Source: an uncultured Eubacteriales bacterium
Lineage (GTDB): Bacteria > Bacillota > Clostridia > Christensenellales > Aristaeellaceae
DNA: 64,000 bases
Direction: 5' to 3'
NCBI GenBank assembly: GCA_902767565.1
Contig: CACXHY010000008.1
Span: 35,752-99,751, forward strand
The notes beneath the pieces are model-generated. The model made no database searches, had not been told where the DNA came from, and saw nothing but the letters and a program-made list of their open reading frames with translations. A program made the translations under genes and the position numbers. Below, piece after piece: positions 12,761 to 49,915 of this stretch (the first letter of the stretch is position 1; every line of letters starts with the position of its first letter).

Positions 12761-12785
12761 CAAGCCGCCCCTTTTCTGCTATACT
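12757..12785 (+). promoter_or_regulatory. Sigma-A promoter of the ABC-F gene
   Basis: Consensus TTGACA at 12757-12762, a 17-bp spacer, and TATACT at 12780-12785. The -35 box overlaps the stop codon of the esterase. Transcription would begin near 12792, giving a leader of about 205 bases before the ABC-F ATG. Confidence 0.9.
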
Positions 12786-12820
12786 CACGCCATCCGAAGA
12801 AAGGACGGTATTTCCGACTG

Positions 12821-12838
12821 ATGAAGATCCGCAGCTGA
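12821..12838 (+). CDS. Possible leader peptide MKIRS in the ABC-F leader
   Basis: ATG AAG ATC CGC AGC TGA encodes five residues inside the leader. An AAAGGACGG site lies upstream, but with a long 15-base gap. Such mini-ORFs are known in antibiotic-sensing leaders; coding is unproven. Confidence 0.3.
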   Translation: MKIRS

Positions 12839-12847
12839 CATCCGGCC

Positions 12848-12988
12848 AAAACATGAGCCTCTTCCCATGGGAAGAGATGTTTTGCCGCCGCGTGGAGGCT
12901 GCGTTTTTCAATGCATTCGGGCCGACAGGTCCAGGCGCTGTTCACGCGCCGCGCAATGCATACGCTCCCCCGCGGCGGCGCGAGGGAG
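12848..12988 (+). promoter_or_regulatory. Structured leader with SD-sequestering hairpin (candidate attenuator)
   Basis: Three structures are visible. First, AAAACAT at 12848-12854 plus CTCTTCC at 12859-12865 pair with GGAAGAG plus ATGTTTT at 12870-12883. Second, AGCCTC at 12856-12861 can instead pair with GAGGCT at 12895-12900, just before GCG and a T5 run. Third, CTCCC at 12965-12969 pairs with GGGAG at 12984-12988, extended by CGCG/CGCG with a GCGG loop. This last hairpin buries the ribosome site GAGGGAG of the ABC-F gene. The layout suggests drug- or stall-dependent control of translation or termination. Confidence 0.6.
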
Positions 12989-12997
12989 TGATTTTTC

Positions 12998-14668
12998 ATG
13001 GCAAAGCGATATCTGGAAGCCGACCGCATCATCCTCTCCTACGGGGAGCGGCAGGTGTTGGATCTGGCGCATTTGGAGATCAACGAGGGCGACCGCATCG
13101 CCCTGATCGGTGAAAACGGGGCGGGCAAGTCCACCCTGCTGGCCATTCTGGCCGGGGAACTGGAGCCCGACAGCGGCAGCGTGCGCCGCTTCTGCACGCC
13201 GGCCTTCATCCGCCAGTCCGGGGAAGCGCGGCTCGACGGCAGCGCGCGGCTGGTCTCCGAGTTCCGGGCGCCGTCGCTGCGGGAGGGGCTCTCCGGCGGC
13301 GAGCAGACCCGCAGACGCATCACCGAAGCCCTCTCCGCCGACGCCCGGCTCCTGCTGGCGGACGAACCCACCACCGACCTGGACGCCGACGGCATCGCCC
13401 GCCTTCGCAGACAGCTGCAGGCCTATCCGGGCGCGCTGGTGCTGGTCTCCCACGACCGGTCCCTGCTGAACGCCCTGTGCGATCGGGTCTGGCATCTGGA
13501 GGACGGGCAGATCACCGTGTTCCCCGGCACTTATGACGAATACCAGGCGGAACTCCGCCGCCGCAGGGAATTCCAGCAGTTCGAGTATGATCAGTACCGC
13601 GCCGAGAAGGCCCGCCTGAAAGCCATGGCCCAGCAGAAGGCGGAGTGGGCCTCCTCCGTGCGCAAGGCCCCGAGCCGCATGGGGAACAGCGAGGCCCGGC
13701 TCCACACCCGCGAATACACCAACGCGGTGCTGAAGCAGAGCGCGGCAAAGCGCACCGTCGAAAACCGGCTGGAACGGCTGGAGAAGAAGGAGCGCCCGAA
13801 GGATCTCCCGGACATCCGCATGACGCTGGGCGTGGCCCACCCCATCGAGGCACGGACCGCGCTGTCCGTGCGCTGCGACAGTCTCCGGGCGGGCGGCGCC
13901 GTTCTCCTCTCCGGTGCGGGATTCACGCTGCCCACGGGCTCCCGGACCGCCCTGATGGGGCTGAACGGCAGCGGAAAGACCACCCTGCTGCGGGCGCTCC
14001 GGGGAGAGCCTTCCGACGGCACGGCTTTCGACGGGCAGGTCCGGATCAATCCCGCGGCCCGGGTGGGCTGGTTCGATCAGGACCACGGGCGCACGCTGGA
14101 CCCGGACGCCACAGCCCTTGACAACGCGCTGCGGGACTCGCCCTTCCCGGGATCCCTGGCCCGCACGGTCCTGGCACGGCTGAACCTTCCGGGGGACGAT
14201 GTATTCAAGCCCGTGCGGGTGCTCTCCGGCGGGGAGCGCACCAAGGTCGCCCTGGCAAAGCTGCTGCTTTCCGACGCCAATCTGCTGCTTCTGGACGAGC
14301 CGACCAACCATCTGGATGTCTTTGCCCTGGAAGCGCTGGAGGGACTGCTGAAGGAATACGGCGGCACGCTGATGTTCGTCAGCCATGACCGGACCTTCGT
14401 CTCCGGGGTGGCCACCCGCATCCTGACGCTGGAAAGCGGGCGTCTGACAGCGTTTGAAGGCACGCTGCCGCAACTGGAAGCGGAATCCGGCCGGGACCGG
14501 GCGGCGGAGAGCGGCGCACTGGAGATCACCGCGCTGGAGATGCGGCTGGCCGAGCTTTCCGCAAGGCTTGCCGCACCCCGCAAAGGCGATGACCCCGAAG
14601 CCCTGAACGCAGCCTGGCGGGAGCTGGCGGGAGAGATCCGCAGACGCAGGGCCATGGAGCGATCCTGA
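12998..14668 (+). CDS. ABC-F subfamily ATPase (ribosome-protection/antibiotic-resistance type)
   Basis: 556 residues with two fused ATP-binding domains and no membrane segments, the ABC-F layout. The first Walker A is GENGAGKST near residue 42, the second GLNGSGKTT near 326; both signature motifs (LSGGE) and both SHDR H-loops are present. The interdomain linker, about residues 185-285, is charged and helical, as expected for the arm that reaches the ribosomal P-site tRNA and peptidyl-transferase centre. The short C-terminal extension ends in a basic RRRRAMERS. Length and linker resemble Lsa/Msr/Vga-like resistance factors more than Uup/EttA housekeeping types, and the regulated leader supports this. 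Drug specificity cannot be read from the sequence. Confidence 0.85.
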   Translation: MAKRYLEADRIILSYGERQVLDLAHLEINEGDRIALIGENGAGKSTLLAILAGELEPDSGSVRRFCTPAFIRQSGEARLDGSARLVSEFRAPSLREGLSGGEQTRRRITEALSADARLLLADEPTTDLDADGIARLRRQLQAYPGALVLVSHDRSLLNALCDRVWHLEDGQITVFPGTYDEYQAELRRRREFQQFEYDQYRAEKARLKAMAQQKAEWASSVRKAPSRMGNSEARLHTREYTNAVLKQSAAKRTVENRLERLEKKERPKDLPDIRMTLGVAHPIEARTALSVRCDSLRAGGAVLLSGAGFTLPTGSRTALMGLNGSGKTTLLRALRGEPSDGTAFDGQVRINPAARVGWFDQDHGRTLDPDATALDNALRDSPFPGSLARTVLARLNLPGDDVFKPVRVLSGGERTKVALAKLLLSDANLLLLDEPTNHLDVFALEALEGLLKEYGGTLMFVSHDRTFVSGVATRILTLESGRLTAFEGTLPQLEAESGRDRAAESGALEITALEMRLAELSARLAAPRKGDDPEALNAAWRELAGEIRRRRAMERS

Positions 14669-14700
14669 CGCCCGATCCGTGCGGGATTTCCCTCCGGTGC

Positions 14701-14729
14701 TTGCCAAACGCGCCAAAACGGGGTATAAT
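14701..14729 (+). promoter_or_regulatory. Sigma-A promoter of the orotate-PRTase-like gene
   Basis: TTGCCA at 14701-14706, a 17-bp spacer, and TATAAT at 14724-14729. Confidence 0.87.
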
Positions 14730-14774
14730 GACCCTACATTGACACCGCATCCACATCGACAGGAGGGATATCCC

Positions 14775-15419
14775 ATGGCGATCCAGCTCTTTGAGTTTCC
14801 CAACCGGCATGGCAGCCTGCCCCTGAGGGTGGCCCACGGTCACTTTGCCACCAGCCACAGCCACATCAACTACTATGTGGACCTGACCATGACCAAACAC
14901 CGCCTGTCGGAGGCCCGGGCCGCGGCGCTGGAACTGTGCAGCAAGTTCTACACCTCCACCGTGATCGACACGATCCTCTGTCTGGACGGCACGGAGGTCA
15001 TCGGTGCGTGCATGGCCAGCGAGCTGACCCGCACCGGCCACGTGAACATGAATGCACACCGGACCATCTACGTCTGCACCCCCGAGCACACCTCCGGCTC
15101 CCAGCTGCTCTTCCGGGAGAACATCGCTCCCATGATCGTGGGCAAGCATGTGCTGATCCTGGCCGCTTCCGTCACCACGGGCTACACCGCTCAGGCGGCG
15201 CTGGAAGCCATCCGCTACTACTGCGGCATACCGGTGGGCCTGTGCGCCATCTTCTCCTGCGTGGAGGAGTGCGAGGGCTTTCCGGTCATGAGCATCTACA
15301 ACACCAGGAACGACCTCAGCGACTATGTGAGCACCCCCTCCCGGGACTGCCCGCTGTGCAAAGCCGGGGTCAAGCTGGACGCCATGGTCAACAGCCACGG
15401 CATCTCCAGCTTCAGTTGA
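14775..15419 (+). CDS. Orotate phosphoribosyltransferase-like protein
   Basis: 214 residues with a type I phosphoribosyltransferase fold. The segment where the PRPP loop should lie reads LILAASVTTGYTAQAAL: the TTG-x-T turn is present, but the usual acidic pair before it is replaced by AA. Near the C-terminus, DCPLCKAG resembles half of a zinc-binding site. Similar proteins in Clostridia are annotated as PyrE-like. With no acidic pair it may bind PRPP differently or serve as a regulator. AGGAGGGA lies 6 bases before the ATG at 14775; the frame extends upstream to 14679 but crosses the promoter. It is monocistronic, with no other pyr genes nearby. Confidence 0.7.
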   Translation: MAIQLFEFPNRHGSLPLRVAHGHFATSHSHINYYVDLTMTKHRLSEARAAALELCSKFYTSTVIDTILCLDGTEVIGACMASELTRTGHVNMNAHRTIYVCTPEHTSGSQLLFRENIAPMIVGKHVLILAASVTTGYTAQAALEAIRYYCGIPVGLCAIFSCVEECEGFPVMSIYNTRNDLSDYVSTPSRDCPLCKAGVKLDAMVNSHGISSFS

Positions 15420-15562
15420 TACCGATCCCCGTTCGGATCCTGTCCGTCATGCGGGGGATCTCCGACTGACAGGCCCGCAAGGGTGTCTGATCACCGCCGC
15501 CCCCTTCGCTTCCGGCCCTGCCCGATGGGTCCGGTCCGGACGGGGTGCGGCATGGACCACGG

Positions 15563-15594
15563 AAAAACGAACCGGTCGCGTGCCGGTTCGTTTT
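15563..15594. terminator. Bidirectional terminator between the PRTase-like gene and aroC
   Basis: AAAACGAACCGG at 15564-15575 pairs perfectly with CCGGTTCGTTTT at 15583-15594. It gives T-runs in both directions, serving the two converging genes. Confidence 0.85.
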
Positions 15595-15605
15595 CGGTTG
15601 TGCGT

Positions 15606-16703
15606 TTACTTTTTCGACCCGTCCAGCCGCTCGGCGCGCTCCAGCCAGAGCTCCGTGAGCCCGATGGCGGCCATGGCCTCGATCACCGGACAGACCCGCG
15701 GCAGAATGCACGGATCATGCCGCCCCCGAACGGACAGCACGGTCTCTTCCATCCGCTGCAGGGATACGGTCCGCTGCTCCTTCGCGATGGAGGGCGTGGG
15801 CCTCACGGCGCAGGTGAACAGCAGGGGCATGCCGTTGGTGACGCCGCCGTTGATGCCGCCGGAATGGTTGGTCACGGTCCCGATCCCGCCGTCCCGCAGG
15901 CAGAAGGCGTCGTTCATGCCGCTGCCCCGTCCGGACGCAAAGGCAAAGCCGTCGCCGAACGCGACCCCCTTGACGCCCGGGATCGAGAACAGCAGCCGGC
16001 TCAGGACCGACTCCGCGCTGTCGAAAAAAGGAGCGCCGAGACCGGCGGGAAGGCCGTCCACCCGACAGGTGACCGCGCCGCCCAGCGAATCTCCCGCCTC
16101 GGCCGCTTCCCGGATGGCCGTCTCCATCTCTTCGGCCAGTCCGCCGCGCAGGACGGGCAGGGGCATGTCTTCCAGAAAGGACAGGCCGCCCTCCGCCCCG
16201 CCGATGGGATCGTCGGTCAGATCGCCCAGCCGGCTGATGTGGCTGCGGACCGCCACGCCCCGCGATGCCAGGAACTGACGGCACAGCGCCCCGGCAAAGA
16301 CCAGGGGAGCCGTCAGTCTGCCGGAAAAGCTGCCGCCTCCGCGGGCATCCTCAAATCCGTGATAACGCACATGGCCCGTGTAGTCCGCGTGTCCCGGCCG
16401 CAGCAGGTCCACGGCATCGCCGTAATCCCCCGGGCGGGCATCCTCGTTGCGGATCAGCACGCACAGGGGCTGTCCGGTGGTGACGCCGTTCAGCACACCC
16501 GAGACGATCTCAGGCCGATCCTCCTCGCGGCGGGCGGTGCTCAGTGCGCTGCGTCCCGGCGCACGGCGGCGCAGCTGCTTTTCGACGGCATCCATGTCGA
16601 TGGCCATGCCAGCCGGGAATCCGTCCAGCACCGCGCCGACGGCCTCCCCGTGGCTTTGGCCGAAAACCGTCAGCCGCAGGTGCTCCCCGAAGACGGCGCT
16701 CAT
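15606..16703 (-). CDS. aroC: Chorismate synthase
   Basis: Last step of the shikimate pathway: converts 5-enolpyruvylshikimate-3-phosphate to chorismate using reduced FMN. 365 residues. The family signatures GESHG-like FGQSHGEAVGAVLDGFPAG near the N-terminus, RPGHADYTG in the middle, and GIGTVTNHSGGINGG later are all visible, with both catalytic His residues. The start at 16703 overlaps the aroA stop by four bases (ATGA on the minus strand), so the pair is translationally coupled. The longer frame to 16907 lies inside aroA and is rejected. Confidence 0.96.
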   Translation of the reverse strand: MSAVFGEHLRLTVFGQSHGEAVGAVLDGFPAGMAIDMDAVEKQLRRRAPGRSALSTARREEDRPEIVSGVLNGVTTGQPLCVLIRNEDARPGDYGDAVDLLRPGHADYTGHVRYHGFEDARGGGSFSGRLTAPLVFAGALCRQFLASRGVAVRSHISRLGDLTDDPIGGAEGGLSFLEDMPLPVLRGGLAEEMETAIREAAEAGDSLGGAVTCRVDGLPAGLGAPFFDSAESVLSRLLFSIPGVKGVAFGDGFAFASGRGSGMNDAFCLRDGGIGTVTNHSGGINGGVTNGMPLLFTCAVRPTPSIAKEQRTVSLQRMEETVLSVRGRHDPCILPRVCPVIEAMAAIGLTELWLERAERLDGSKK

Positions 16704-37721: not shown

Positions 37722-40220
37722 ATGAACGACCGCGACAGCAGGCTGAAAATGCGATACGTCTTCATGATCGCGGTGATCCTGCTGATCTTTGCCTATCTGG
37801 TTTCCGGCCTGGTGCGTCTCCAGCTCGACGACACCGAGGAATACGTCGAGCAGGCGGAAGATCAGAAGACCCTGACCATCAAGCTCCGCGGCCGGCGCGG
37901 AAACATCATCGACGCGGACTCCGTCATCCTGGCCGAGGACGAATGGGTCTACAATGTCACCTTCTACAAGGATGCCACCCAGACCGGCAAATCGGCCTAT
38001 GAGAGCTACACCCGCTCCATCATCGACACCATCCGGATCGTCGAGTCGAACGGCGGCCAGATGGCCATCAAGGGCAACCTGCAGCGAAACGCGGAGACCG
38101 GCGAGTGGGAGTTCAACTTCGGCTCGGGCGTGTCGGACGCGGTGCTGGCCACCCGCCAGCGGCAGTGGCGGAGCAACAACTATCTCAGCGAAAGCAAGTA
38201 TCCCACCGCGGCCGACTGCTATGAGGAACTGTACAAGCGCTACCGTTTCGCGGAGGTGGCGCCGGACCTGGATGAAGAAACCGTCCTGAAGGTGATGGCC
38301 ATCTTCTGCGAAATGCAGATGAACATCTTCAACTCACAGCCCATCGTCATCGCCAAGGACGTGAGCTATGAGACCGTCATCGAGGTGGAGACCCGCTCCA
38401 TGACCCTCCCCGGCATGGAGATCGACATGGGCACCAAACGCGTGTATCCGCGATCCACCCTCGCGGCACAGGTCATCGGCTACACCGGCGCCATCCCCTC
38501 CCAGTCCACCTGGCAGACCCTGCGGGCCAAAGGCTACTCCTACAACGACACCATCGGCAGGGACGGCATCGAGTCCTCCATGGAGGACTGGCTGACCCCC
38601 AACTCCAGTCAGCGGCAGGGCTACCGGGTGGTGATCCGGGACCAGCGCTCCACCGTCGTGCGGGAGATCGACCATCAGGATCCCACGGACGGCTGCACCG
38701 TCAAGCTGACCCTGCACGCCTCCCTGCAGGAGATCGCGGAAGAAGCCATCGAGATGAACGTCAACGACACCCGCGACCGCGAGGAATCCAGGCTGGGCAG
38801 CGGCAAGTGGCAGGAGGCGAACCGCAACGACATCGCCACCCGCAACTGGACCAAGTACCCCCTGGAGTTGGCCACCCATGGCTGCATGGTGGTGCTGGAC
38901 ATGCAGGACCGGGTGCTGGCCCTGGCCAACTACCCCACCTATGACCTGAACGCTCTGGTGGCCGGCGGCGAGAGCGCGGTAGCCATCCTGGCGGATGAGC
39001 GCAACCTGCTGCTGAACTACGGCATCCACGCCAGGGGGACACCCGGGTCCATCTTCAAGATGGTGACGGGCTACGGCGCGCTGAACGAAGGCGTGCTGCA
39101 GCCCGACGAGTACATCACCGACATGGGCTACTACACCCGCTACAACGCCGACCTCTCCACCGCGCCGAAGTGCTGGGTGGCGGACAACTACCGCTACGAG
39201 CACGCCTACCAGACCATCGTGGAGGGCCTGTCCCACTCCTGCAACTACTTCTTTTATGAGTGCGGGCATCGGCTGGGCGAGGAGCGGCTCTACTACTACG
39301 CGGCCCAGTTCGGCCTGACCTCCCGCACGGGCATCGACCTGCCCGGCGAGGTGCGCTCGGTGGTGGGGTGCCAGAACACCCTGTACGACCCTACCAAGCC
39401 CATGAACGAGGCCAACCAGGACACCTCCCTTCCCATCATCGTCTTCAATGCCATCAAGACCCACCTGCGGAACTGCGGGGCTTCCCGGGGCATCGAGTAC
39501 GACGATGAACGCCTCTCCGTCTGCGCTAAGCGCCTGATGGACATGGCGGTCAACTACAACGAATCGGACTGGCTGGACAATATGCGCACCATCCTGATGG
39601 AGGAGCTGTCCATGACCAAGTCCATGGTCTACTCCCAGCAGATCATCGGCGACACCTACAACTACATGAACACCATCAAGTGGGGCGGCGGCCAGACCAT
39701 ATTGACGGCCATCGGGCAATCCGTCACCACCCTGACGCCGGTGGCGGTCGCCCGCTATGTGTGCGCCGTCGCCAACGACGGATACGTGTACAACGTATCG
39801 CTGGTGGACTCCATCATCTCTCCCGACGGCCAGGTGCTCAGCCAGCGGGAGCCGCAGCTCATCAACCAGCTGGAGAACGGTCCGCAGTATCTCGGCCTTC
39901 TCCGGAAAGGGATGGAGGGCGTGGTGGACGACCAGGGTACGGCGTCAAGCTACTTCAAGGGCTGGAAGTACATCGACGATATCTGCGCAAAAACGGGAAC
40001 CGCCCAGGTCACGAGCATCGACCTGGAAAACAACGCATGGTTCGTCTGTTTTGCGCCCCGTGAGAATCCCGAGATCGCCATCGCGGTCTTCATCCCCCAC
40101 GGGGCTTCCGGCGGCTACGCCTCCCTGGCGGCCAAGAGTTTCATCGAACAGTATCTAGACCGTGAGAACTTGCGCACCGTGGACTACGATCTGCCCTACG
40201 GCAACTCGTTGGCCCCCTGA
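37722..40220 (+). CDS. mrdA: Penicillin-binding protein 2 (elongation transpeptidase)
   Basis: Cross-links new peptidoglycan during elongation, working with RodA. 832 residues. A single N-terminal membrane anchor (about 12-32) is followed by a pedestal domain. The transpeptidase motifs are all present: SxxK as SIFK with Ser443, SxN as SCN at 506-508, and KTG at 757-759. The protein is about 150 residues longer than typical PBP2, mainly between the pedestal and the catalytic domain and within residues 560-680. AAAGGAGG is about 10 bases before the ATG. Confidence 0.96.
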   Translation: MNDRDSRLKMRYVFMIAVILLIFAYLVSGLVRLQLDDTEEYVEQAEDQKTLTIKLRGRRGNIIDADSVILAEDEWVYNVTFYKDATQTGKSAYESYTRSIIDTIRIVESNGGQMAIKGNLQRNAETGEWEFNFGSGVSDAVLATRQRQWRSNNYLSESKYPTAADCYEELYKRYRFAEVAPDLDEETVLKVMAIFCEMQMNIFNSQPIVIAKDVSYETVIEVETRSMTLPGMEIDMGTKRVYPRSTLAAQVIGYTGAIPSQSTWQTLRAKGYSYNDTIGRDGIESSMEDWLTPNSSQRQGYRVVIRDQRSTVVREIDHQDPTDGCTVKLTLHASLQEIAEEAIEMNVNDTRDREESRLGSGKWQEANRNDIATRNWTKYPLELATHGCMVVLDMQDRVLALANYPTYDLNALVAGGESAVAILADERNLLLNYGIHARGTPGSIFKMVTGYGALNEGVLQPDEYITDMGYYTRYNADLSTAPKCWVADNYRYEHAYQTIVEGLSHSCNYFFYECGHRLGEERLYYYAAQFGLTSRTGIDLPGEVRSVVGCQNTLYDPTKPMNEANQDTSLPIIVFNAIKTHLRNCGASRGIEYDDERLSVCAKRLMDMAVNYNESDWLDNMRTILMEELSMTKSMVYSQQIIGDTYNYMNTIKWGGGQTILTAIGQSVTTLTPVAVARYVCAVANDGYVYNVSLVDSIISPDGQVLSQREPQLINQLENGPQYLGLLRKGMEGVVDDQGTASSYFKGWKYIDDICAKTGTAQVTSIDLENNAWFVCFAPRENPEIAIAVFIPHGASGGYASLAAKSFIEQYLDRENLRTVDYDLPYGNSLAP

Positions 40221-40265
40221 GGCAAGCGTTCCCGCGACCCCCTACAGAAAGGAAGCCTGCCAGTC

Positions 40266-41066
40266 ATGGGCACTGTCCTCCTGATCGCCTCCGGAAAGGG
40301 CGGCGTCGGAAAATCCACCATATCCTCCGCTCTGGCCATCGCCCTGAGCCGCCGGGACGCCAGCGTCTGCATCGTGGACGCGGATATCGGCCTGCGCAGC
40401 CAGGACGCCATCCTGGGCGTCGCCGACAGTGTGGTGTATGACCTGATGGACGTGGCCCGCAAGGGCTGCAACATCCGCCAGGCTCTGATCCACCTGCCCG
40501 GCGAGGAGGATGTGTGCCTGATGGCCTCTTCCCAGTTCGCCCGGGCCAAGGATCTGGACGCCAAGGATTTCACCAAGATCGTGCAGGAGCTGCGCCAGAC
40601 CTTCGGCTATGTGCTGATCGACTGTCCGGCGGGGCTGGAGCGGAACATGCGCATCCTCACCCAGTGCGAACCCGACGAGGCTATCGCCGTGGCCACCCCA
40701 GACGACGTGTCCGTACGGGATGTGCGGCGGCTGTGCATGGTGCTGCGGGAGCGGAGGGTCAACACGCCGAAGCTGATCGTCAACCGGCTGGATCCCCTGC
40801 TGATCAGCGCCGGGGAGATGCGCTCCGCCCAGGAGATCTCGGACGAGCTGAAGCTTCCCCTGCTGGGAGAGATCCCCGAGGACGTGCATGTCTACCGCGC
40901 CCTCCTGACCGGGCGCCGCTTCATGGATCTGGAGTGTGAGGCAGCCAACGCCATCACCCGCATCGCCGCGCGGATCCGGGGGAACGAGGTCCTCCTGCCG
41001 GAGTACGGCAGCCGCCGTCTCTCCTGGCGGGAGCGGAGAAAACTGAGGAAGCTCACGGAGGTATGA
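40266..41066 (+). CDS. minD: Septum-site-determining ATPase MinD
   Basis: 266 residues. The deviant Walker A SGKGGVGKST near residue 9 and the DADIGLRSQD switch-I region are diagnostic of MinD. DCPAGLERNMR is the Walker B/switch-II segment. The C-terminal helix (SWRERRKLRKLTEV) is basic and amphipathic and likely attaches to the membrane. In related Clostridia, minC and minE flank minD; neither is present here. AAAGGAAG lies about 10 bases upstream. Confidence 0.95.
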   Translation: MGTVLLIASGKGGVGKSTISSALAIALSRRDASVCIVDADIGLRSQDAILGVADSVVYDLMDVARKGCNIRQALIHLPGEEDVCLMASSQFARAKDLDAKDFTKIVQELRQTFGYVLIDCPAGLERNMRILTQCEPDEAIAVATPDDVSVRDVRRLCMVLRERRVNTPKLIVNRLDPLLISAGEMRSAQEISDELKLPLLGEIPEDVHVYRALLTGRRFMDLECEAANAITRIAARIRGNEVLLPEYGSRRLSWRERRKLRKLTEV

Positions 41067-41069
41067 CCT

Positions 41070-42275
41070 TTGATCGCCGAAAACAGACGGGCCCGCGCCC
41101 ATCTCGACATCCCGCTGATCGCGATCGTCTACGCGCTCAGCCTTTTCGGCGTCCTCGCGGTGGCGGTCGCAACCTATTCCACCTCCTCCACTCCGGATCT
41201 CCCCCTGCTCAACCACATCGTGGAATCCACCTCCGCCCGCAGACAGGCGATCTATGTGGCCCTGTCCCCCGTCGTGCTGGCGGTCATGATCGCCATTCCC
41301 CTGCGGTTTTACCGCCAGCGGGCCGGCCTGCTCTTCTGGGCCGCCACCGGCTTCATCACCGTGGTGTGGATCTTCAACCGCGCCGCCGGCGTGAAGCAGT
41401 GGCTGGACCTGTTCCTGGACTTCACGGTCCAGCCGACGGAATTTGCCAAGCTGGCCATCATCCTGATGCTGGCCAAGCTGATGTCCGCAAAAGAAAAGCC
41501 CATGGCGACGAGGAAGGATGCGTTCCGGATGCTGCTGATCCTCGGCATCCCGTCGGTGGTCATCGTGCTCTCCGGCGAAACGGGATCCTTCTTCGTGATC
41601 GCCTTCCTGTTCGTGTTCATGCTGTGGTTCGCCAAGGTGGACTTCCGGGTGCTGGCCCTCATGTTCGGCATCGTGGCGGCGCTGGTGCTGGCCATCTATG
41701 CCTACGCCACGGCCACAGGTTCCAATGACTACAGGCTGGTCCGCATCCTCTCCTTCATCGATCCCCAAACCTACTCCACCGGCGCCTACCAGCAGACCCA
41801 CTCGAAGATCGCCATCGGTTCCGGCGGGCTCACGGGCGTGGGCCGGTTCCGGGACGACAGCTGGTATCAGCTGAACTTCGTGCCCGCCGACTGGACGGAC
41901 TTCATCTTTGCCACCATCGGCGAGGCCTGGGGCTTCGTGGGCTGCGCCGGCGTGCTGCTGCTGTACCTGCTCATGATCCTGCGCATGCTGTACCTGGCCC
42001 GCTACACCCGCGACCGCTTCGGCATGCTGGTGATCATCGGCGTCACGGGGATGTTCACCTTCCACATCATCGAGAACATCGGCATGACCACAGGCCTGCT
42101 GCCGATCACGGGCATCCCGCTGCCCTTCCTCTCCTACGGCGGCTCCAACATGATCACCAACATGGCCGGCATCGGCCTGGTGCTGAATGTCACCAAAAAC
42201 CGCAGCCTCTCCGGCAGCTATCAGACCCCGCAGACGGATGTGGGCATATCGAGGTATACGGCCAGCTACCAGTGA
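41070..42275 (+). CDS. rodA: SEDS-family peptidoglycan glycosyltransferase RodA
   Basis: Polymerises lipid II during cell elongation together with PBP2. 401 residues with ten predicted membrane helices. The SEDS hallmarks are PTEFAK, the large extracellular loop, NFVPADWTDFIFATIGEAWG and the GMTTGLLPITGIPLPFLSYGG motif. TTG start 3 bases after the minD stop, with GGAGGT 7 bases upstream. It ends the elongation operon, followed by a terminator. Confidence 0.94.
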   Translation: MIAENRRARAHLDIPLIAIVYALSLFGVLAVAVATYSTSSTPDLPLLNHIVESTSARRQAIYVALSPVVLAVMIAIPLRFYRQRAGLLFWAATGFITVVWIFNRAAGVKQWLDLFLDFTVQPTEFAKLAIILMLAKLMSAKEKPMATRKDAFRMLLILGIPSVVIVLSGETGSFFVIAFLFVFMLWFAKVDFRVLALMFGIVAALVLAIYAYATATGSNDYRLVRILSFIDPQTYSTGAYQQTHSKIAIGSGGLTGVGRFRDDSWYQLNFVPADWTDFIFATIGEAWGFVGCAGVLLLYLLMILRMLYLARYTRDRFGMLVIIGVTGMFTFHIIENIGMTTGLLPITGIPLPFLSYGGSNMITNMAGIGLVLNVTKNRSLSGSYQTPQTDVGISRYTASYQ

Positions 42276-42300
42276 TCTCGCGGAAGGTTTTACAGTCATG

Positions 42301-42331
42301 ACGGCGCTTCGCGGCTGCGGAGCGCCGTTTT
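42301..42331 (+). terminator. Intrinsic terminator after rodA
   Basis: CGGCGCT at 42302-42308 pairs with AGCGCCG at 42321-42327, followed by TTTT. Flanking CATGA/TCATG adds outer pairing. Confidence 0.78.
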
Positions 42332-42380
42332 CATGACCGCGGGCGGGCTTTTCGCGGCAAAGGGCCGGAAAGCGCATTTG

Positions 42381-42409
42381 TTGACTTGCTCCCCCCTTCG
42401 TGGTATCAT
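42381..42409 (+). promoter_or_regulatory. Sigma-A promoter of the surface-sugar and tubulin/actin-like operon
   Basis: TTGACT at 42381-42386, a 17-bp spacer, TGG-TATCAT at 42401-42409 (extended -10). Confidence 0.85.
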
Positions 42410-42440
42410 GCAGGCGAGGAATCCGAAAGGTGGGAAAACC

Positions 42441-43838
42441 GTGCGCACGCTGCTGTCTAGGCTGAACCGGCACCGCTCCGAGATCCTGGTGAGCGGTCTG
42501 CGTGTGCTGACCTATCTGGGGCTGGCGGCCCTGTTTTTCGGGCTGATGGGGATCCGGAACTGGCAGCTCCGACACCTGAGCCGCACCCTCGCCACCACCC
42601 TGCTGACCTGGATCGCCATGTCCGTGGCCATGGTGGCCGTCTACGGCGGATACGACGTGGGCCGGAAAAAGAGCCGTCCCATCACCTCCTCCATGTCGCT
42701 GGGCAACCTGATCACCTGCCTGGTCACCTATCTGCAGCTGGAGATCATGAACGTCAATCCCGCCAACAACCAGCATCTGACGCTCTTCGGGCGGGATATC
42801 CTGTGGCTGCTGCTCTGCGTCATCCTCCAGACCGCCTTCATCTACGGAATGGTACGGGCCGGGAACTGGCTTTACTTCCGCCTGCATCTGCCGAGGGCCT
42901 GCCTGCTGATCCATGATGAAGCCACCCGGGTGGAAACGGTTGAGGAGAAGATCGGCCGCTACCGTCTGCAGTGGCATCTCGCGGAGACCGCCCTGTGGAC
43001 CGAGCCCGACCTGGAACGCCGCATCGAGCAGGCGGACGTGGTGTTCATCGCCGGCGTTCCGGACTCCGCGCGGCTGCGCCTGCTGAAGATCTGCTACGAC
43101 CAGCGGCGGGACGTGGTCTGTCAGGCCGAGCTGCAGGACATCATGCTGTCCGCGGCCCAGCCCCTGATCGTCGACGACGCGCTCTTCCTGGAGATGGATT
43201 ATCACAAGATGACGCTGTTCCAGCGCATCGTCAAGCGGGTGACGGACATCGCGGTAAGCGCGCTGGTGCTGCTGCTTCTGTGGCCGCTGATGGGGCTGAT
43301 CGCTCTGAGCATCCTGCTGGACGACGGCGCCCCGGTGATCTTCCGCCAGGAGCGCATGACGGGCGGCGGTCACACCTTCAAGATCCGCAAGTTCCGCACC
43401 ATGAGGCGCGGCAGCGGCGATGTCTCCTGCGAGGAGGACGACACACGCGTGACCCGGGTGGGCCGTATCCTGCGCCGCGCCCGGCTGGATGAGCTTCCCC
43501 AGTTCTGGAACATCCTGATCGGCGACATGACCCTCGTCGGTCCCAGGCCCGAGATGCTGGCCAACGTGGAGAAGTACAAGAGCGCCCTGCCTTCCTTCGT
43601 ATACCGTGAAAAGATGAAGGCGGGCCTCACCGGCTATGCCCAGATCGAAGGCCGCTACAACACATCCCCGGAGGACAAGCTGATGCTGGACCTGATGTAC
43701 ATCGAGCGGTTCTCCCTCTGGAACGACATCCGGCTTCTGTTCCGCACCCTCACCGTGTTCTTCAAGAAGGACTCCGCCGCTCCCTTCGCGAAGGCGGAGG
43801 AAGCCCCGAGCGGCCGGGAGGATGAGGCGGGTGGCTGA
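42441..43838 (+). CDS. Undecaprenyl-phosphate sugar phosphotransferase
   Basis: 465 residues from GTG at 42441, with AAAGGTGGG upstream. The N-terminal part (about 15-145) has four membrane helices, followed by a soluble CoA/nucleotide-binding-like region. A fifth helix near residue 285 leads into the bacterial sugar transferase domain: RQERMTGGGHTFKIRKFRTMR, RLDELPQFWNILIGDMTLVGPRPE and KAGLTGYAQIEGRYNT. These enzymes transfer a sugar-1-phosphate to undecaprenyl phosphate to begin exopolysaccharide or glycan assembly. It is co-transcribed with galE, 54 bases away. Confidence 0.93.
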   Translation: MRTLLSRLNRHRSEILVSGLRVLTYLGLAALFFGLMGIRNWQLRHLSRTLATTLLTWIAMSVAMVAVYGGYDVGRKKSRPITSSMSLGNLITCLVTYLQLEIMNVNPANNQHLTLFGRDILWLLLCVILQTAFIYGMVRAGNWLYFRLHLPRACLLIHDEATRVETVEEKIGRYRLQWHLAETALWTEPDLERRIEQADVVFIAGVPDSARLRLLKICYDQRRDVVCQAELQDIMLSAAQPLIVDDALFLEMDYHKMTLFQRIVKRVTDIAVSALVLLLLWPLMGLIALSILLDDGAPVIFRQERMTGGGHTFKIRKFRTMRRGSGDVSCEEDDTRVTRVGRILRRARLDELPQFWNILIGDMTLVGPRPEMLANVEKYKSALPSFVYREKMKAGLTGYAQIEGRYNTSPEDKLMLDLMYIERFSLWNDIRLLFRTLTVFFKKDSAAPFAKAEEAPSGREDEAGG

Positions 43839-43892
43839 ATGCCTTCCGTAGCGCTTCCCGACCCGGGATCTCACATCAAGGAGGTTTGTACC

Positions 43893-44909
43893 ATGAACAT
43901 TCTCCTCACCGGCGGCGCCGGCTACATCGCGACCCACACCTGTCTGGAGCTCCTGAAAGCGGGACACCGCGCGGTCATCGTGGACAATTATGTCAATAGC
44001 CAGCCTGAAGCTGTCAGCCGCCTGGAAGAGCTGGCCGGACAGCCCGTGCCGCACTATGTGGCCGACGTCGCCGACCGGGAGGCCATGGACCGGATCTTCT
44101 CGGAGAACGCCTTTGACGCGGTGATCCATTTCGCGGGCCTCAAGGCCGTGGGCGAGAGCGTCCACCAGCCCCTGCGCTACTACCGCAACAATCTGGACAC
44201 CACCCTGACCCTCTGCGAGACCATGCAGGCCCATGGGGTCAGGCGGCTGGTCTTCTCCTCCTCCGCCACGGTGTACGGCGTGCCGGACGAGGTGCCGCTG
44301 CGGGAGGACATGTTCTGCAAGGGCTGCACCAACCCCTACGGCTGGACCAAGTACATGATCGAGAAGATCCTCGGGGGCGTATGCGACGCGGACCCGGAGT
44401 GGAGCGTGGTCCTGCTGCGCTATTTCAATCCCATCGGCGCCCATGAAAGCGGCCGCATCGGCGAGGATCCCCAGGGCATCCCCAACAACCTGATGCCCTT
44501 CATCACGCAGGTGGCCGCGGGCCGTCTGGACCACCTTTCGGTCTTCGGCAATGACTACGACACCCCCGACGGCACCGGCGTGCGCGACTACATCCATGTG
44601 GTGGACCTGGCCCGGGGCCATGTGGCTGCCTGCGATTACGCCGCAGGCCACGCCGGCTGCGAGATCATCAACCTCGGCACCGGCGTCGGCTACAGCGTGC
44701 TGGACATCGTCAACGCCTTCGAGCGCGTCAACGGCGTGAAGATCCCTTATGTCATCGGGCCCCGCCGCCCCGGCGACGTGGACGCATGCTACGCGGATCC
44801 TGCCAAAGCCAGGGCTCTCCTGCACTGGGAGGCCGAGAAGACCCTGGACGACATGTGCCGCGACGCCTGGCGCTGGCAGTCCGCCAATCCCCGCGGCTAT
44901 CGCGGCTGA
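43893..44909 (+). CDS. galE: UDP-glucose 4-epimerase
   Basis: Interconverts UDP-glucose and UDP-galactose with bound NAD. 338 residues. The Rossmann motif TGGAGYIATHT is at residues 6-16. The catalytic SSSATVY...YGWTKYMIEK gives Ser and the Y-x-x-x-K pair. AAGGAGGT is 7 bases before the ATG at 43893; the frame extends to 43839 without a ribosome site. It supplies sugar for the transferase upstream and lies 22 bases before the tubulin-like gene. Confidence 0.96.
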   Translation: MNILLTGGAGYIATHTCLELLKAGHRAVIVDNYVNSQPEAVSRLEELAGQPVPHYVADVADREAMDRIFSENAFDAVIHFAGLKAVGESVHQPLRYYRNNLDTTLTLCETMQAHGVRRLVFSSSATVYGVPDEVPLREDMFCKGCTNPYGWTKYMIEKILGGVCDADPEWSVVLLRYFNPIGAHESGRIGEDPQGIPNNLMPFITQVAAGRLDHLSVFGNDYDTPDGTGVRDYIHVVDLARGHVAACDYAAGHAGCEIINLGTGVGYSVLDIVNAFERVNGVKIPYVIGPRRPGDVDACYADPAKARALLHWEAEKTLDDMCRDAWRWQSANPRGYRG

Positions 44910-44931
44910 ACCCTGAGGAGGCTGTTCCCGG

Positions 44932-46743
44932 ATGAAACTGTCCCTCGTCTGTATCGGGAGCACCGGTGCGCAGGTTGCGGAGATCCTTCTGCACTGCGCC
45001 TTTTGCGGTGCCCTCCCCCGGGAGGATGTGATCCGGGTCAGCCTGCTTGCCGCTCCCGATGAATCGGCAGCCCGCCTCAAGAGCCTCTATGCAGCCTACG
45101 GAGAACTGCGCAGCGGATGGGGACTGAACCGGCACACCGCCCTGGCGCCCATCCTCAGCCTGCGGATCGATCCCCTCTCCGGCAGTCTGGCAGATCTGGC
45201 TTCCTCCGGGGATACGTCCCTGCTCCGCTGCATGTTCTCCTCCCAGGAGATGCACCAGCCGGCGGTCCACGCGTCGCCCCGGGCAGCCTCGGTCTACTGG
45301 GCCTGCCTTTTGGACCGGCCCGAAGGCGTGCCGGCAGAGATCCTCGCCGACGCGAAGGAACTGCCCACCGTCGTCTGCGCTTCCCTGGCCGATCCCTGCG
45401 GCACAGCCGCGCTGGAGCATCTGGCCCCGCTCCTGAACGCGCAGCCCTTTGCCGCGCTGATGATGTCCACCCTGCACGGGGAAGATCCCGCCCCCGTACG
45501 CCGTTTTTTGGACGAGACCCGGATCCGCCCCGACATGACGGCCCTGGTGGGACTGCCGGACGACTGCGCTTCCCGGGAGGAAGGTCCGCACCTGGCCCAT
45601 CTGCTGCTGGTGCGGGCCTTGGACGCCTTCCTCACAGGCGCCCGGGGCGAGTTCGGCTTCCGCGCGCCAACCGCGCTGGACTGGAGCGTGCTGGATCCCG
45701 GCGGCGCCCGATGGGGGGCGGCCTTCGACTGCCTGCTGCGCTTTGACGCCCTGTGGCACGGGATCTTTCTTCCGGACAGCCGACGCGCGCTCCGGGACGG
45801 CACAGCGCCACGGGGGCGCCGCAGCCCCTGGCTGACCCCCTATCTGGGCGTATGCTTCGGCAGAGCGGACCTCTCCGCGGCAACGGAACGCCAGCTGCTC
45901 CGGGCCGGTGACCTGGCTCACCGCGGCGCGTGCTGGCTGCGGTCCATGCAGCGCAGTCTGCCCTTCGTTCTGCGCACCTCCGTGCTGCTGAACGAGGCCC
46001 GGGACCAGGCCGCTGCCCACTATGAGCAGCTGCTGCGCCGTGCCGGTCAGCTGGCGCTGCTGGAACACGACATCCGCCTGACCGGCATGACGCCTCACAC
46101 CACCATCCATCGCCATGATATGGAGGACACCGAGGACGAGACCGCCCTGATCCAGCGGGAGGCGCTGCGGGAAGCCCTTCAGATGGACATTGCCGCCCAG
46201 CGGGACTACGACCTGAAGGAGGGCGGACGCGTCCGTCTGAACACCCTGCGGGAGATCGCGGCCCGCGAACGCGAGGAAGCCGACACTCTGCGCCGTCAGG
46301 CAGCGGAAGCCCACGGGATCATCGACAGGGCGGCTGCGAACGCTTCGCCGGAGAACCTGGCCAAGATCGATCAGGCGCGTGCACGTCTGCGGCGGATGGA
46401 GCGGCGCCTGGCAAGCCTGGAGGGCCGGGCCCGGCAGGCCGAAAGAGACGCCCGCAGCGCCGGGGAGCAGGATGCCCGCACGAGACCGCCTGTCCTGGAC
46501 GCACCGCTGGACGCCCCTTCGGAGGTCTTCTGGCCTGCCGCCTGGCTGGACATGCTCTGCGGCCTGCCCCGCATCACGGAGGCCCGCGCCAGGACCCGTC
46601 AGACCCAGACGGTCCTCGGCTACTGGCCCTGGAGCTCGATGCCCGCAAAGGGCCTGGCGGAGCGGGTCCCCGGATTGGCGGCTCCCGATGCCGCACCGGC
46701 TCTGCGGCTGATCGATGTTGTGCTTCACGTCTGCGGTGCCTGA
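44932..46743 (+). CDS. Tubulin-like (Tubulin_2 type) protein with coiled-coil tail
   Basis: 603 residues. I read it as a divergent tubulin/FtsZ-fold protein. The N-terminus LVCIGSTGAQVAEILL matches the first glycine loop, and VVCASLADPCGTAALEHLAPLL at about 147-168 aligns with the tubulin signature loop GGGTGTG, but with PCGT in place of GGTG. A region near 215-235 (HLAHLLLVRALDAFL) fits the conserved helix after the N-loop. Two coiled coils follow (about 345-395 and 430-515). GTP binding is doubtful because two loop glycines are missing. AGGAGG lies 8-9 bases before the ATG. It is 19 bases from its actin-like partner. Confidence 0.55.
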   Translation: MKLSLVCIGSTGAQVAEILLHCAFCGALPREDVIRVSLLAAPDESAARLKSLYAAYGELRSGWGLNRHTALAPILSLRIDPLSGSLADLASSGDTSLLRCMFSSQEMHQPAVHASPRAASVYWACLLDRPEGVPAEILADAKELPTVVCASLADPCGTAALEHLAPLLNAQPFAALMMSTLHGEDPAPVRRFLDETRIRPDMTALVGLPDDCASREEGPHLAHLLLVRALDAFLTGARGEFGFRAPTALDWSVLDPGGARWGAAFDCLLRFDALWHGIFLPDSRRALRDGTAPRGRRSPWLTPYLGVCFGRADLSAATERQLLRAGDLAHRGACWLRSMQRSLPFVLRTSVLLNEARDQAAAHYEQLLRRAGQLALLEHDIRLTGMTPHTTIHRHDMEDTEDETALIQREALREALQMDIAAQRDYDLKEGGRVRLNTLREIAAREREEADTLRRQAAEAHGIIDRAAANASPENLAKIDQARARLRRMERRLASLEGRARQAERDARSAGEQDARTRPPVLDAPLDAPSEVFWPAAWLDMLCGLPRITEARARTRQTQTVLGYWPWSSMPAKGLAERVPGLAAPDAAPALRLIDVVLHVCGA

Positions 46744-46762
46744 CAGAGGAAAGGAACACCCC

Positions 46763-49700
46763 ATGCCCGATCCCACTTTTGTGATGCTGCCCGATGAGGT
46801 CGACACGGTCCCGCTGGCTGAAGGCGCCGGCCTTAGCGCGGCGCATCAGAGTCTGCTGCGGATGGCCGCGGAAGCCATGAAGCCGGCACCGCCGGAAGCG
46901 GGCCGCGCCCCCACCCGGCTGTCCTCCTGGCGGGGGCTTTTGGCGTTTGCGCTGCTGTCGGATCAATTCCCGGAGGGCACGCTCACGGTGGAAACGGTCG
47001 CCGCGGACGCCGGCCCCATCGCCCGGGCGCTGCTCGCCGGAACAGCTGAAAGACAGGCGCTGATCTGTGTCTGGCAGACAGAAGGGGAACGCGCCGTCCT
47101 GGGAACGGCCGACCGGAGCTGGGGCATTCTCCCGGCCGCGCAGGCGCCGGCCCTGCTGGGGCTTGTGCCCGAGGCGGTCCGGTGGCTGGACGGCAACGCG
47201 GGATTCGCGGATCCCGTCAACCGCCTCACAAGCCGGCAGCGCACCCTGCTGCAGGCCCGCCTGGACGCCTTTGACGCGCCGGAGGTGAAAGCCTTCGCCG
47301 AGGACCTGGAACGCCGGGACGCGGAGCTGACCGCCCGCTGCCTGTCCCTTGAGGAAGGCGGCGACTGGCAGACGGCCGCGGCAGCCTGTGCCTGTCTTAC
47401 GGCTGAACCCGCCTTTTCGGCCCTCACGTCTGAGAGTCACAGCCCGAAGCCGCGGGTCAACCCGCTGCTATCTGCCCTGGGGCTGGCCGATCCCCTGCCC
47501 GGACTTCCGCCCGAAACCGAGTGGCGCTGGCAGGGCAAGCCTTTTGCCCGCAGCAGCACGCGGACCGGTGTGGAACTCGACCGAAGCGATCCCGACGAGA
47601 CCGGCGCCATTCTGGCGTCCTTCGACGACGAACTGGCCCTGCTCGGGCGCTGGTCCCCGCGCTTCATGCGGGAGGCGTCGGAGCGTCTGGACAGCTGGGT
47701 GAACGCGCACGCGGAATGGCTGGTCCCGGAGGCGCAGAACGCCCTCCGGCAGGTATGCTCCGGTTTCGCGCAGCTGGCGGCCCAGCCCCGCGAGGAACCC
47801 GCCTTCACCCTTCCCCTGGACCCCTCTTCCCCCGCTTTGCGCCTGATCCTTCGCGACGCGCTGGGAGAACAGGCCGAAGCGCTGGCCCTGCACGTCTTCT
47901 CCGACCGCCTGGCCAGAGTGCCCGACGGAATCCTGGGGGACGTGGTCCTGGAGGACTGCTGCCTGACGGGCAGCGGCACCCAGGAGATGATGAGCCTGCC
48001 GCCCTTCTCGGAGAGGGTCGCGGAGCAGGCCGCCCGCAATGGCTGGGCCGCCTCGCCGGTGGACCCGTCGTCCCTGGCGATGTGCCGGCACGAGGATGGC
48101 AGCATCGAGGCTACCGTGCGCCTCCGGGGCGCCGGCACCCTGACGTTGACCCGGCGGTATGCGCCGGAAGAGCAGGTGATCCTGGAAAGGCCCCCCTGTG
48201 TCTCCCTGTGGCCTTCGGTGCCCATGCCTTCCCCTGCCTGGAAGCACTATCGAGTATCCGTGCTCGGCGCGTGTACCCTGCGGCTGCTGGAGAAGGACAC
48301 TTGGCATACCGTGGAATGCGGCGGCGATGCGCCTCATATGGAGCTCACAGACACCTATCCCGCGGCAATGAGCCTTCTGCAGGACGGGCTGTCCCTGGGA
48401 ACGCTGATCAGCCTGGATGAAGCGCCCCCGGTCACAGCGCCGCAGGAGATCTCCTCCGCGGTGGACTTCGGCGCGTCCGGCCTGCGCATGGCGCTGACAA
48501 TCGACGGGCGCACGGAGGCCTTCTCCCTGCCCTCCCTCTGGCGTATCCTCCTGCGCCGCGGCACGGATCCCGGTGCGGACATTCTGCCCCAGGACGGCTT
48601 TGGGGAGTTCCTGTCTCCCTGCGTACGCCTCCGCGGCGACGCGCAGGACCCGCAGCCCTTCACAGACGGCAGCATCAGCGATGCCCCGGATGACGCGGCC
48701 GCCATCGGGGACCTGATCTGGCAGAACAGCGGCCGCGGCGCAAAAGCCCGGCGCCTGATGATCCGCGAGGCGCTGCTCCTGCTCTCCGCACGCGTGGCCA
48801 TGACCGGATCGGATGTCTTCCGCTGCCGGGCCGTGCTGCCGGACAGGATGACGGACATTCAGCAGCAGAACCTCAGCGGCGAGTTCGCGGCTTTGGCCGC
48901 GGAGATCGGCCGCGCGACCGGCATCCGCGTCGAAGCCTCGGATCCGGCCGTCACAGCCGCGGCGGCACTGTATGCTTTCCAGCGGATCAGCACGCCGGAC
49001 CGCCCCTTCGCCGCCCTGGACCTGGGTGCCGGCGCCGCGGGGCTGGCGCTGTGGCTGAGAGGGCAGGACCGCCCTGTCATGGCTCTGAGCGTGGGCAGCG
49101 GCATCACCGGTTTTCTGGCCGCCGTCTTTGCCAGACGCCCCGACTGGCTGCGAAACGAGCTCTATGTGGCGCCGGGCCGTGAGCCGGACGCTATGGGAAA
49201 GCGCTTTCTCCGGGCCGCGGACGCGGCGGAGCATACGGCGGACACCGTCGGGGCCGGCGAGGTCCTGCGGCGCACCCTGGACAGCCTGCTGGGGCCGCAT
49301 TTTGCCGAGACCTCCGCAGCCATCGCCGCCTCATGCGCCAGACGGGGCCAGCTCTCCCGGATCCACGCGCTGCTGCTTTTCGCTTTCGCCTGCGATCTGA
49401 CCACGGCCGGTCTCGCCCTGGAGAAGATCCGCTGGGATGGGGCGCTCTCCCTGCGCCTGCCTCCCGAGCTGCCCCTGGTCCTCTGCGGCCGGGCCTCCTC
49501 GCTGATCATGGCGTTCGACAGCGCCCAGCAGTGGCAGCTCAGCGGCTTCGCGCGCCTGTGCATGACCGACGGACACCCTGTCCGCAGCCTGCCCATCGTC
49601 TTCAGCGAGCGGCCCGGCATGGAAGCGGTCTTCGGCGCGGCCCCCATCGTCAGTTTGCCGGACCCGCCGTCATTGGCCCATCTGAACGGCGTCCTCCCCC

Positions 49701-49915
49701 CGATGCGGATCGCGGCAGGTTTCCTCCTCGCCTTCCGGCAGGCTTTTCCTCAGGCGGCCGAGCTTCTCTTTCCGGGATTGTTCTCCGTCGACGGCTCCCT
49801 CTCCCCCGCCGCGGACCCGCTCCTGACATCCCTTTCCCAGCGCGCGGGCGGCAGCGAAAGCGCTGCCTTCATCGAACTCCTGGAAGACCTGGTGTTCGAG
49901 TTCGCCCGCAAATGA
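46763..49915 (+). CDS. Giant actin/Hsp70-like protein
   Basis: 1050 residues. The N-terminal 560 residues are unrecognised, apart from SLWPSVPMPSPAWKHYRV near 490, which recurs in large bacterial SrfB-like Hsp70 proteins. The rest has the actin/Hsp70 ATPase motifs in order: phosphate-1 AVDFGASGLRMAL at about 566-578, connect-1 DPAVTAAAALYA near 727, phosphate-2 ALDLGAGAAGLALW near 751, and adenosine motif VLCGRASSLI near 907. Key acidic residues of both phosphate loops are kept. ATG at 46763 with GAGGAAAGGAA; the frame to 46715 lacks a site. It probably forms a complex with the tubulin-like protein. Confidence 0.6.
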   Translation: MPDPTFVMLPDEVDTVPLAEGAGLSAAHQSLLRMAAEAMKPAPPEAGRAPTRLSSWRGLLAFALLSDQFPEGTLTVETVAADAGPIARALLAGTAERQALICVWQTEGERAVLGTADRSWGILPAAQAPALLGLVPEAVRWLDGNAGFADPVNRLTSRQRTLLQARLDAFDAPEVKAFAEDLERRDAELTARCLSLEEGGDWQTAAAACACLTAEPAFSALTSESHSPKPRVNPLLSALGLADPLPGLPPETEWRWQGKPFARSSTRTGVELDRSDPDETGAILASFDDELALLGRWSPRFMREASERLDSWVNAHAEWLVPEAQNALRQVCSGFAQLAAQPREEPAFTLPLDPSSPALRLILRDALGEQAEALALHVFSDRLARVPDGILGDVVLEDCCLTGSGTQEMMSLPPFSERVAEQAARNGWAASPVDPSSLAMCRHEDGSIEATVRLRGAGTLTLTRRYAPEEQVILERPPCVSLWPSVPMPSPAWKHYRVSVLGACTLRLLEKDTWHTVECGGDAPHMELTDTYPAAMSLLQDGLSLGTLISLDEAPPVTAPQEISSAVDFGASGLRMALTIDGRTEAFSLPSLWRILLRRGTDPGADILPQDGFGEFLSPCVRLRGDAQDPQPFTDGSISDAPDDAAAIGDLIWQNSGRGAKARRLMIREALLLLSARVAMTGSDVFRCRAVLPDRMTDIQQQNLSGEFAALAAEIGRATGIRVEASDPAVTAAAALYAFQRISTPDRPFAALDLGAGAAGLALWLRGQDRPVMALSVGSGITGFLAAVFARRPDWLRNELYVAPGREPDAMGKRFLRAADAAEHTADTVGAGEVLRRTLDSLLGPHFAETSAAIAASCARRGQLSRIHALLLFAFACDLTTAGLALEKIRWDGALSLRLPPELPLVLCGRASSLIMAFDSAQQWQLSGFARLCMTDGHPVRSLPIVFSERPGMEAVFGAAPIVSLPDPPSLAHLNGVLPPMRIAAGFLLAFRQAFPQAAELLFPGLFSVDGSLSPAADPLLTSLSQRAGGSESAAFIELLEDLVFEFARK

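Follow-up and report, generated by a model that had tools for sequence, protein, structure and literature searches.

The tubulin fold and the actin fold are as a rule found in different cytoskeletons, and a locus that encodes one predicted protein of each kind back to back raises the question of what the two might do together. The locus lies in an uncultured Eubacteriales bacterium, within a 64,000-nucleotide stretch of DNA that is here called the window. The initial annotation had placed the two genes, A and B, 19 bases apart in an operon with galE and a TlpA thioredoxin; the listing of open reading frames (ORFs) and Pfam searches confirm this, with galE and a TlpA/AhpC-TSA-like thioredoxin gene on either side of the adjacent pair:

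42333..43838, plus strand: sugar transferase (Bac_transf, PF02397), 501 aa as called; Pfam E 5.5e-58
43839..44909, plus strand: galE, UDP-glucose 4-epimerase-like; Pfam Epimerase E 1.6e-49
44932..46743, plus strand: gene A, predicted tubulin-fold protein, 603 aa
46763..49915, plus strand: gene B, N-terminal region and predicted actin/Hsp70-fold domain, 1050 aa
49944..50459, plus strand: TlpA-like thioredoxin, 171 aa; Pfam AhpC-TSA E 4.5e-23

A purine-rich stretch stands 5' of the start of each of galE, A, B and the TlpA-like gene. Gene B opens at ATG 46763, 19 bases past the A stop and preceded by GAGGAAAGG; the ORF listing also holds an alternative ATG at 46715 that overlaps A. The true start of galE is likely 43893 (MNILLTGG), preceded by AAGGAGGT. 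The sugar transferase has four TM-like stretches and lacks a clear ribosome-binding site at 42333, and its true start may lie further in. In relatives too, this gene stands 5' of galE-A-B, and a TlpA-like gene near B was found elsewhere in G008 and G013, among 87 loci.

Predicted folds of the two proteins

The predicted structures of both proteins and structure searches with them were used alongside profile searches, and the following parts were distinguished:

44956..44967, plus strand: T1-like loop GSTG of A, residues 9-12 (GGTG in most relatives of the type I gene order described below)
45382..45408, plus strand: degraded T4 loop SLADPCGTA of A, residues 151-159 (SIFGGTGAS in G024)
46132..46461, plus strand: long helices of A, residues 401-510, read as coiled coil (DSSP on the model; charged sequence)
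46763..48442, plus strand: N-terminal region of B, residues 1-560 (in P0082 and P0084 its relatives are joined to a domain of tubulin fold)
48443..49660, plus strand: predicted actin/MreB/Hsp70-fold domain of B, residues 561-966
48455..48490, plus strand: phosphate-1 motif of B, degraded by pattern, SAVDFGASGLRM (IGLDFGSISTAV in G024)
49013..49048, plus strand: phosphate-2 motif of B, degraded by pattern, ALDLGAGAAGLA (NLDIGGGTADIS in G024)

For A, the predicted structure and the structure search give the fold of a tubulin GTPase domain, as had been proposed, and the GSTG loop and SLADPCGTA are found at residues 9-12 and 151-159. The VIA alignment spans model residues 1-257; the second domain of FtsZ/tubulin is unmatched, and residues 258-384 of the model, beyond the aligned range, are helical. 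At the site of the T4 signature (GGGTG[ST]G-like) window A has DPCG. It matches its relative in L030 (G035) with E 4.4e-18, which in turn matches Tubulin_2 with 26.6 bits (E 4.4e-6) and Tubulin with E 4.4e-5; the aligned site reads SLCGGTGSAGIPAL in L030 and SLADPCGTAALEHL in window A. Six A relatives score 26.6, 25.0, 24.3, 20.4, 17.2 and 17.1 bits against Tubulin_2, all below the curated cut-off of 27 bits. Tubulin_2 (PF13809), the family named in the initial annotation, is the nearest Pfam model for the relatives, but window A itself falls short of it, with no match at E 1; a search of its own genome for Tubulin_2 found none. A is not the cell-division FtsZ, as one strong Tubulin-family match (E 9.4e-52) lies on another contig. 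Otherwise, Pfam returned for A only a chance match on the coiled coil (Cob_adeno_trans, E 0.54) and the sequence search of PDB three chance matches (E 0.2-0.8), while neither A nor B matched NCBIfam and PHROGs gave nothing useful for either.

The model of B (AF2 pLDDT 87.0, pTM 0.75) and the structure search, which says little about residues 1-560, give an actin-like ATPase fold, again as predicted. Hsp70-family chains rank at the top in Foldseek, and of the 24 sequences that the B profile matches in PDB at E <=1, 23 are Hsp70 (best E 0.013); VIA scores MreB, MamK and DnaK alike. Compared with MreB, MamK, DnaK and actin, B has an extra N-terminal region of 560 residues, its phosphate motifs in the window are degraded, and it belongs to no Pfam family (0 families at E 1, HSP70, MreB and SrfB included); 84 residues follow the matched fold at the C-terminus. 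The phosphate-1, phosphate-2 and adenosine-like motifs first read from B can all be located, but the first two fail the patterns. The SrfB-like Hsp70 family, named in the initial annotation, resembles B in having actin/Hsp70-type motifs within a large protein; neither B nor the four relatives scanned match the Pfam SrfB model at E 1. Ppx-GppA was matched weakly, by two B relatives only.

Relatives preserve both frames, more than chance would explain. By codon position, the differences from G008 amount to 0.28/0.21/0.52 in A and to 0.35/0.27/0.54 in B. The dN/dS ratio (NG86) comes to ~0.3 for A and ~0.4 for B at a dS of about 1.1; the open frames together with the codon-position pattern rule out a pair of pseudogenes.

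Pairing, fusion and distribution

We surveyed 250 genomes of the family, the same set for both profiles, and found A in 83 and B in 88. Every genome with A also carries B (83/83), and none has A only. The five with B and no A match (G200, G318, G470, G502 and G514) all belong to genus g52 and have open frames of 1729-1824 residues. A and B share a contig in 80 of the 83, being split over contigs in the other 3, which bears out the proposed conservation of the pairing; in all 80, A is 5' of B on the same strand, and 2-2144 bases separate the two profile matches. These 80 include 13 g52 fusions and also G392 (L201), where a tubulin-fold part with intact motifs is joined to the N-terminal region of B and the actin part is absent. 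At unfused loci with both frames, a count that leaves out G483, G392 and G359, the B frame opens within 200 bases of the A stop in 65 of 66 (the gap in G344 is 916).

In wider searches, B occurs in 14 of 297 genomes order-wide and in 2 of 392 class-wide, the window's own included. A distant B-like protein (L210, in G591:C87; E 4.5e-24) comes from another family of the same class. Searches of 60 relative genomes agree with the family survey, with B in 16 and A in 14, one of these 14 (G045) being a weak partial match. The 11 named loci are from metagenome-assembled genomes labelled Clostridia, Clostridiales or Christensenellaceae, several of them from ruminant rumen, omasum or rectum, and the taxa in the protein search were Clostridia, Clostridiales, Eubacteriales and Candidatus Limiplasma.

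A and B form a single chain at all 18 g52 loci. P0014-P0016 are likewise whole A-B chains, the N-terminal part of P0015 matching A proteins with E down to 5e-9, whereas in P0082 and P0084 a tubulin-fold part whose motifs are intact is joined to the B N-terminal region, the actin part being absent. That these partners have been fused in two different ways argues strongly, if indirectly, for A-B contact, and the window proteins likely form one complex. Over 14 genomes, the distances of A and those of B have a correlation of 0.92, or of 0.86 with galE removed, at a mean site difference of 71% for A and 70% for B against 21% for galE; with the sugar transferase the correlation is 0.82 for A and 0.85 for B (12 genomes).

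Operon types and the state of the nucleotide motifs

The loci show two main types of gene order. Type I is typified by a predicted lipoprotein X, a membrane protein Y with three or four TM-like stretches, A and B. X is present at the locus in g14 (15/15), g15 (4/5), g147 (1/1), g144 (3/4), g13 (1/1) and g158 (1/2), the matches in g13, g144 and g158 being weak (E 1e-9 to 5e-14), and absent in g156 (0/1) and at all 56 loci of g1, g25, g52 and g159; Y was seen in g14, g15 and g147 only. Genome-wide, 22 of 250 carry X; one of these is a g25 genome, with X and A-B on different contigs. None of 12 g1 genomes carries it. A GT4 glycosyltransferase lies 5' of X at 15 of 15 g14 loci. X has ~700 aa (6852-8930 in L047, 1808-3934 in L048, 4492-6663 in L079), had no hit in a sequence search of PDB, and carries the motif D-x-[ST]-Q-x-M, which reads LWLDASQVMGG in L047. 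The motif presumably resembles a MIDAS, and X is perhaps a vWA relative; its naming as a vWA protein was set aside, this likeness being the one lead and X of L047, L048 and L079 having no Pfam match. At L081 (G194, family f23), the stretch 11448-16601, 3' of a type I-like A-B, encodes two proteins, one of 290 aa that matches nothing in Pfam and one of 1409 aa in which Sel1 repeats and an NPCBM domain were matched.

Type II has the order sugar transferase, nucleotidyltransferase, galE, A and B; the nucleotidyltransferase was not found at the locus in the window or in G008. Of the 56 loci on this side, 46 have galE (g1 11/11, g25 17/18, g159 8/9 and g52 10/18), and it is missing from G483 and G455, but on short contigs. 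Two loci depart from both orders: in G019, A-B follows Wzz, a CpsD-like ATPase, CpsB/CapC, an acyltransferase and MgtC, and the G013 locus consists of A-B-TlpA only. Of the 87 loci, 65 carry one or more genes of glycan type (galE, sugar transferase, nucleotidyltransferase, GT4 or CpsB). PF02397, NTP_transferase and GalE proteins have established roles in making UDP-sugars and in attaching the initial sugar to a lipid carrier; the neighbours TlpA, YitT and SpoU are not known to have a glycan role. This glycan context can show shared transcription at most, and operon context is what would tie A-B to the surface.

We scored the nucleotide motifs with patterns of our own (GG[TSV]G for T4). In the type I genera they are kept at every scored locus, on both proteins: T1 27/27, T4 28/28, P1 28/28 and P2 28/28. 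The galE or fused genera keep T1 in 12/55, T4 in 10/55, P1 in 26/56 and P2 in 13/55, and in the window none of the four passes. Genus g25 is mixed: 8 loci keep T4 as well as P2, 6 have lost the two, and in 3 their states disagree. In g52 the tubulin motifs are lost in 18/18 and phosphate-1 is kept in 16/18, which suggests that the GTP site may go first; ATP binding may survive in this genus. Tubulin and actin motif states are strongly associated when uncorrected (35, 2, 5, 40; Fisher 2.7e-15), modestly so within g25 (8, 2, 1, 6; p 0.015), and a coupled-loss test on independent tree pairs was not significant, at the low power of 3 pairs.

A tree of B was built from 64 rows with the motif columns removed and rooted on f23; G013 was left out because its B is broken. 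The g1, g25, g52 and g159 rows and G019 share one starred branch (97), and T4 changes state 4 times and P2 6 times on the tree; by this tree the decay therefore lies on the g1/g25/g52/g159/G019 side and arose more than once. Decay does not go with the glycan operon in every case: G013 is an exception, where T1 and T4 are degraded and no glycan gene is seen at the locus. The B homologue of this genome (L046, G013:C27, 8442-11627) holds three in-frame TAG codons, with no frameshift and a TGA end. Of 9 other ORFs checked in the same stretch, A included, 0 end in TAG, and of the tRNA genes that were found none has the anticodon CUA, the genome being 79% complete; the TAG codons may reflect decay or recoding.

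Interpretation and comparison with known systems

The initial annotation had read A and B as one complex, perhaps a surface-associated scaffold or an ATP-driven machine in which the tubulin-like part has lost GTP binding. With both predicted folds there and the pairing conserved, the two checks that could have refuted it were passed and this reading is supported. Loss of GTP binding by window A would fit its degraded T1 and T4 motifs. The ATP-driven version is unlikely for the window, because the phosphate motifs of B are degraded too. The simplest account would be an obligate A-B complex, and what goes beyond the conserved pairing we infer. Type I keeps nucleotide motifs in both proteins, and A-B probably served there as an assembly switch driven by nucleotide, with Y coupling it across the membrane to X at the surface; this linkage is likely since both motif sets are kept and the operon also encodes a predicted lipoprotein and a TM protein. 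A-B would then have moved, likely once, to the sugar transferase-nucleotidyltransferase-galE operon, where X and Y are absent and where more than one lineage would have seen its motifs of GTP type and ATP type decay. The window pair would have given up nucleotide cycling, its coiled coil and folded domains likely holding or gating the sugar transferase along with the sugar-nucleotide enzymes. We put the chances about evenly for and against A-B being an obligate cytoplasmic complex that serves as a membrane scaffold for the enzymes starting a cell-surface glycan; a counterpoint is that degraded motifs may still bind and are not proof of lost binding. A more specific version, possible but doubtful, is a co-assembling 1:1 tubulin-actin unit forming a membrane lattice, the first obligate one, whose GTP and ATP sites were dropped after capture by a surface-glycan operon.

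Three other readings draw on the same evidence. That A-B is a mixed cytoskeletal filament or lattice marking a membrane site, irrespective of the neighbouring enzymes, we consider improbable: both predicted folds are typical of filament formers, and the 1:1 fusion and the intact type I motifs would suit it, but the VIA match of A covers model residues 1-257 and leaves the second FtsZ/tubulin domain unmatched, and the degraded motifs speak against dynamic filaments in the window. The Hsp70 matches of B, which lead in Foldseek and make up most of the PDB profile matches, would suit an Hsp70-like chaperone with A as its co-chaperone or client adaptor, folding or assembling the sugar transferase (in type I, lipoprotein X), and long coiled coils such as that of A are common in adaptors. 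Against this rather unlikely reading, VIA gives MreB, MamK and DnaK like scores, the 84 residues past the fold leave no room there for a normally sized Hsp70 substrate-binding domain, and with its phosphate-2 motif degraded the window protein would be unable to cycle as a chaperone.

There is, finally, a small chance that the locus is a biological-conflict (defence) system, in which NTP-dependent assembly of the tubulin and Hsp70 relatives limits phage infection, along the lines that Kaur et al. 2020 proposed for GTPase-centred tubulin or HSP70 systems. The patchy distribution and fast evolution of A-B, and the presumed MIDAS-like LWLDASQVMGG in the type I X of L047, favour it; yet PADLOC gave no match at E 0.1 for A and B or for A, B, X and Y of L048, and the galE-side operon is common to four genera. 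The available part of Kaur et al. 2020 (PMC7159879), the nearest of the papers compared, describes GTPase-centred conflict systems with a TRAFAC GTPase and GAP1 as their core. It reports tubulin domains of firmicutes that end in coiled coils at the C-terminus, vWA proteins of the membrane and a theme built on HSP70; the A-B loci resemble these systems in the firmicute tubulin domain with coiled coil and in the Hsp70 relatives, the membrane vWA proteins being a feature of those systems. The defining GTPase and GAP1, however, are unseen among the Pfam-scanned neighbours in the window, L045, L047, L048, L079 and L081. Moreover, in the section of that paper on GAP1-N2 systems the tubulin and HSP70 themes are non-overlapping, whereas here the tubulin-fold and actin-fold proteins are fixed mutual partners, sometimes in one chain.

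The Tubulin_2/FtsZl1 family is a further comparison for A: both have a divergent tubulin GTPase domain, a C-terminal extension and operons with membrane proteins, and the T4 GGTG motif is common to that family and the type I A members. The partners named for it in the available part of Makarova and Koonin 2010 (PMC2875224) are vWA, protein kinase, GTPase and OmpA, and 'hsp70' occurs 0 times in that text; within open-licence PMC, we found no paper on the A-B pair. In the present family of Clostridia, tubulin-fold and actin-fold proteins are fixed partners, in some cases on a single polypeptide, and their nucleotide sites grade from intact to degraded. If the scaffold reading is true, the role of divergent Tubulin_2-like proteins would become testable, as would the way in which NTP-driven cytoskeletal proteins become scaffolds, with the glycan operon as a concrete phenotype to seek.

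Two observations concern the surroundings of the window operon. Immediately 5' of it, on the same strand (37722-42275), lie genes for a PBP2-like transpeptidase, a MinD-like ATPase and FtsW/RodA, which have no match beside the operon in the relatives compared. On the minus strand, an antisense open frame of 1612 codons (40242-45080) runs opposite the real plus-strand genes and is probably an effect of base composition.
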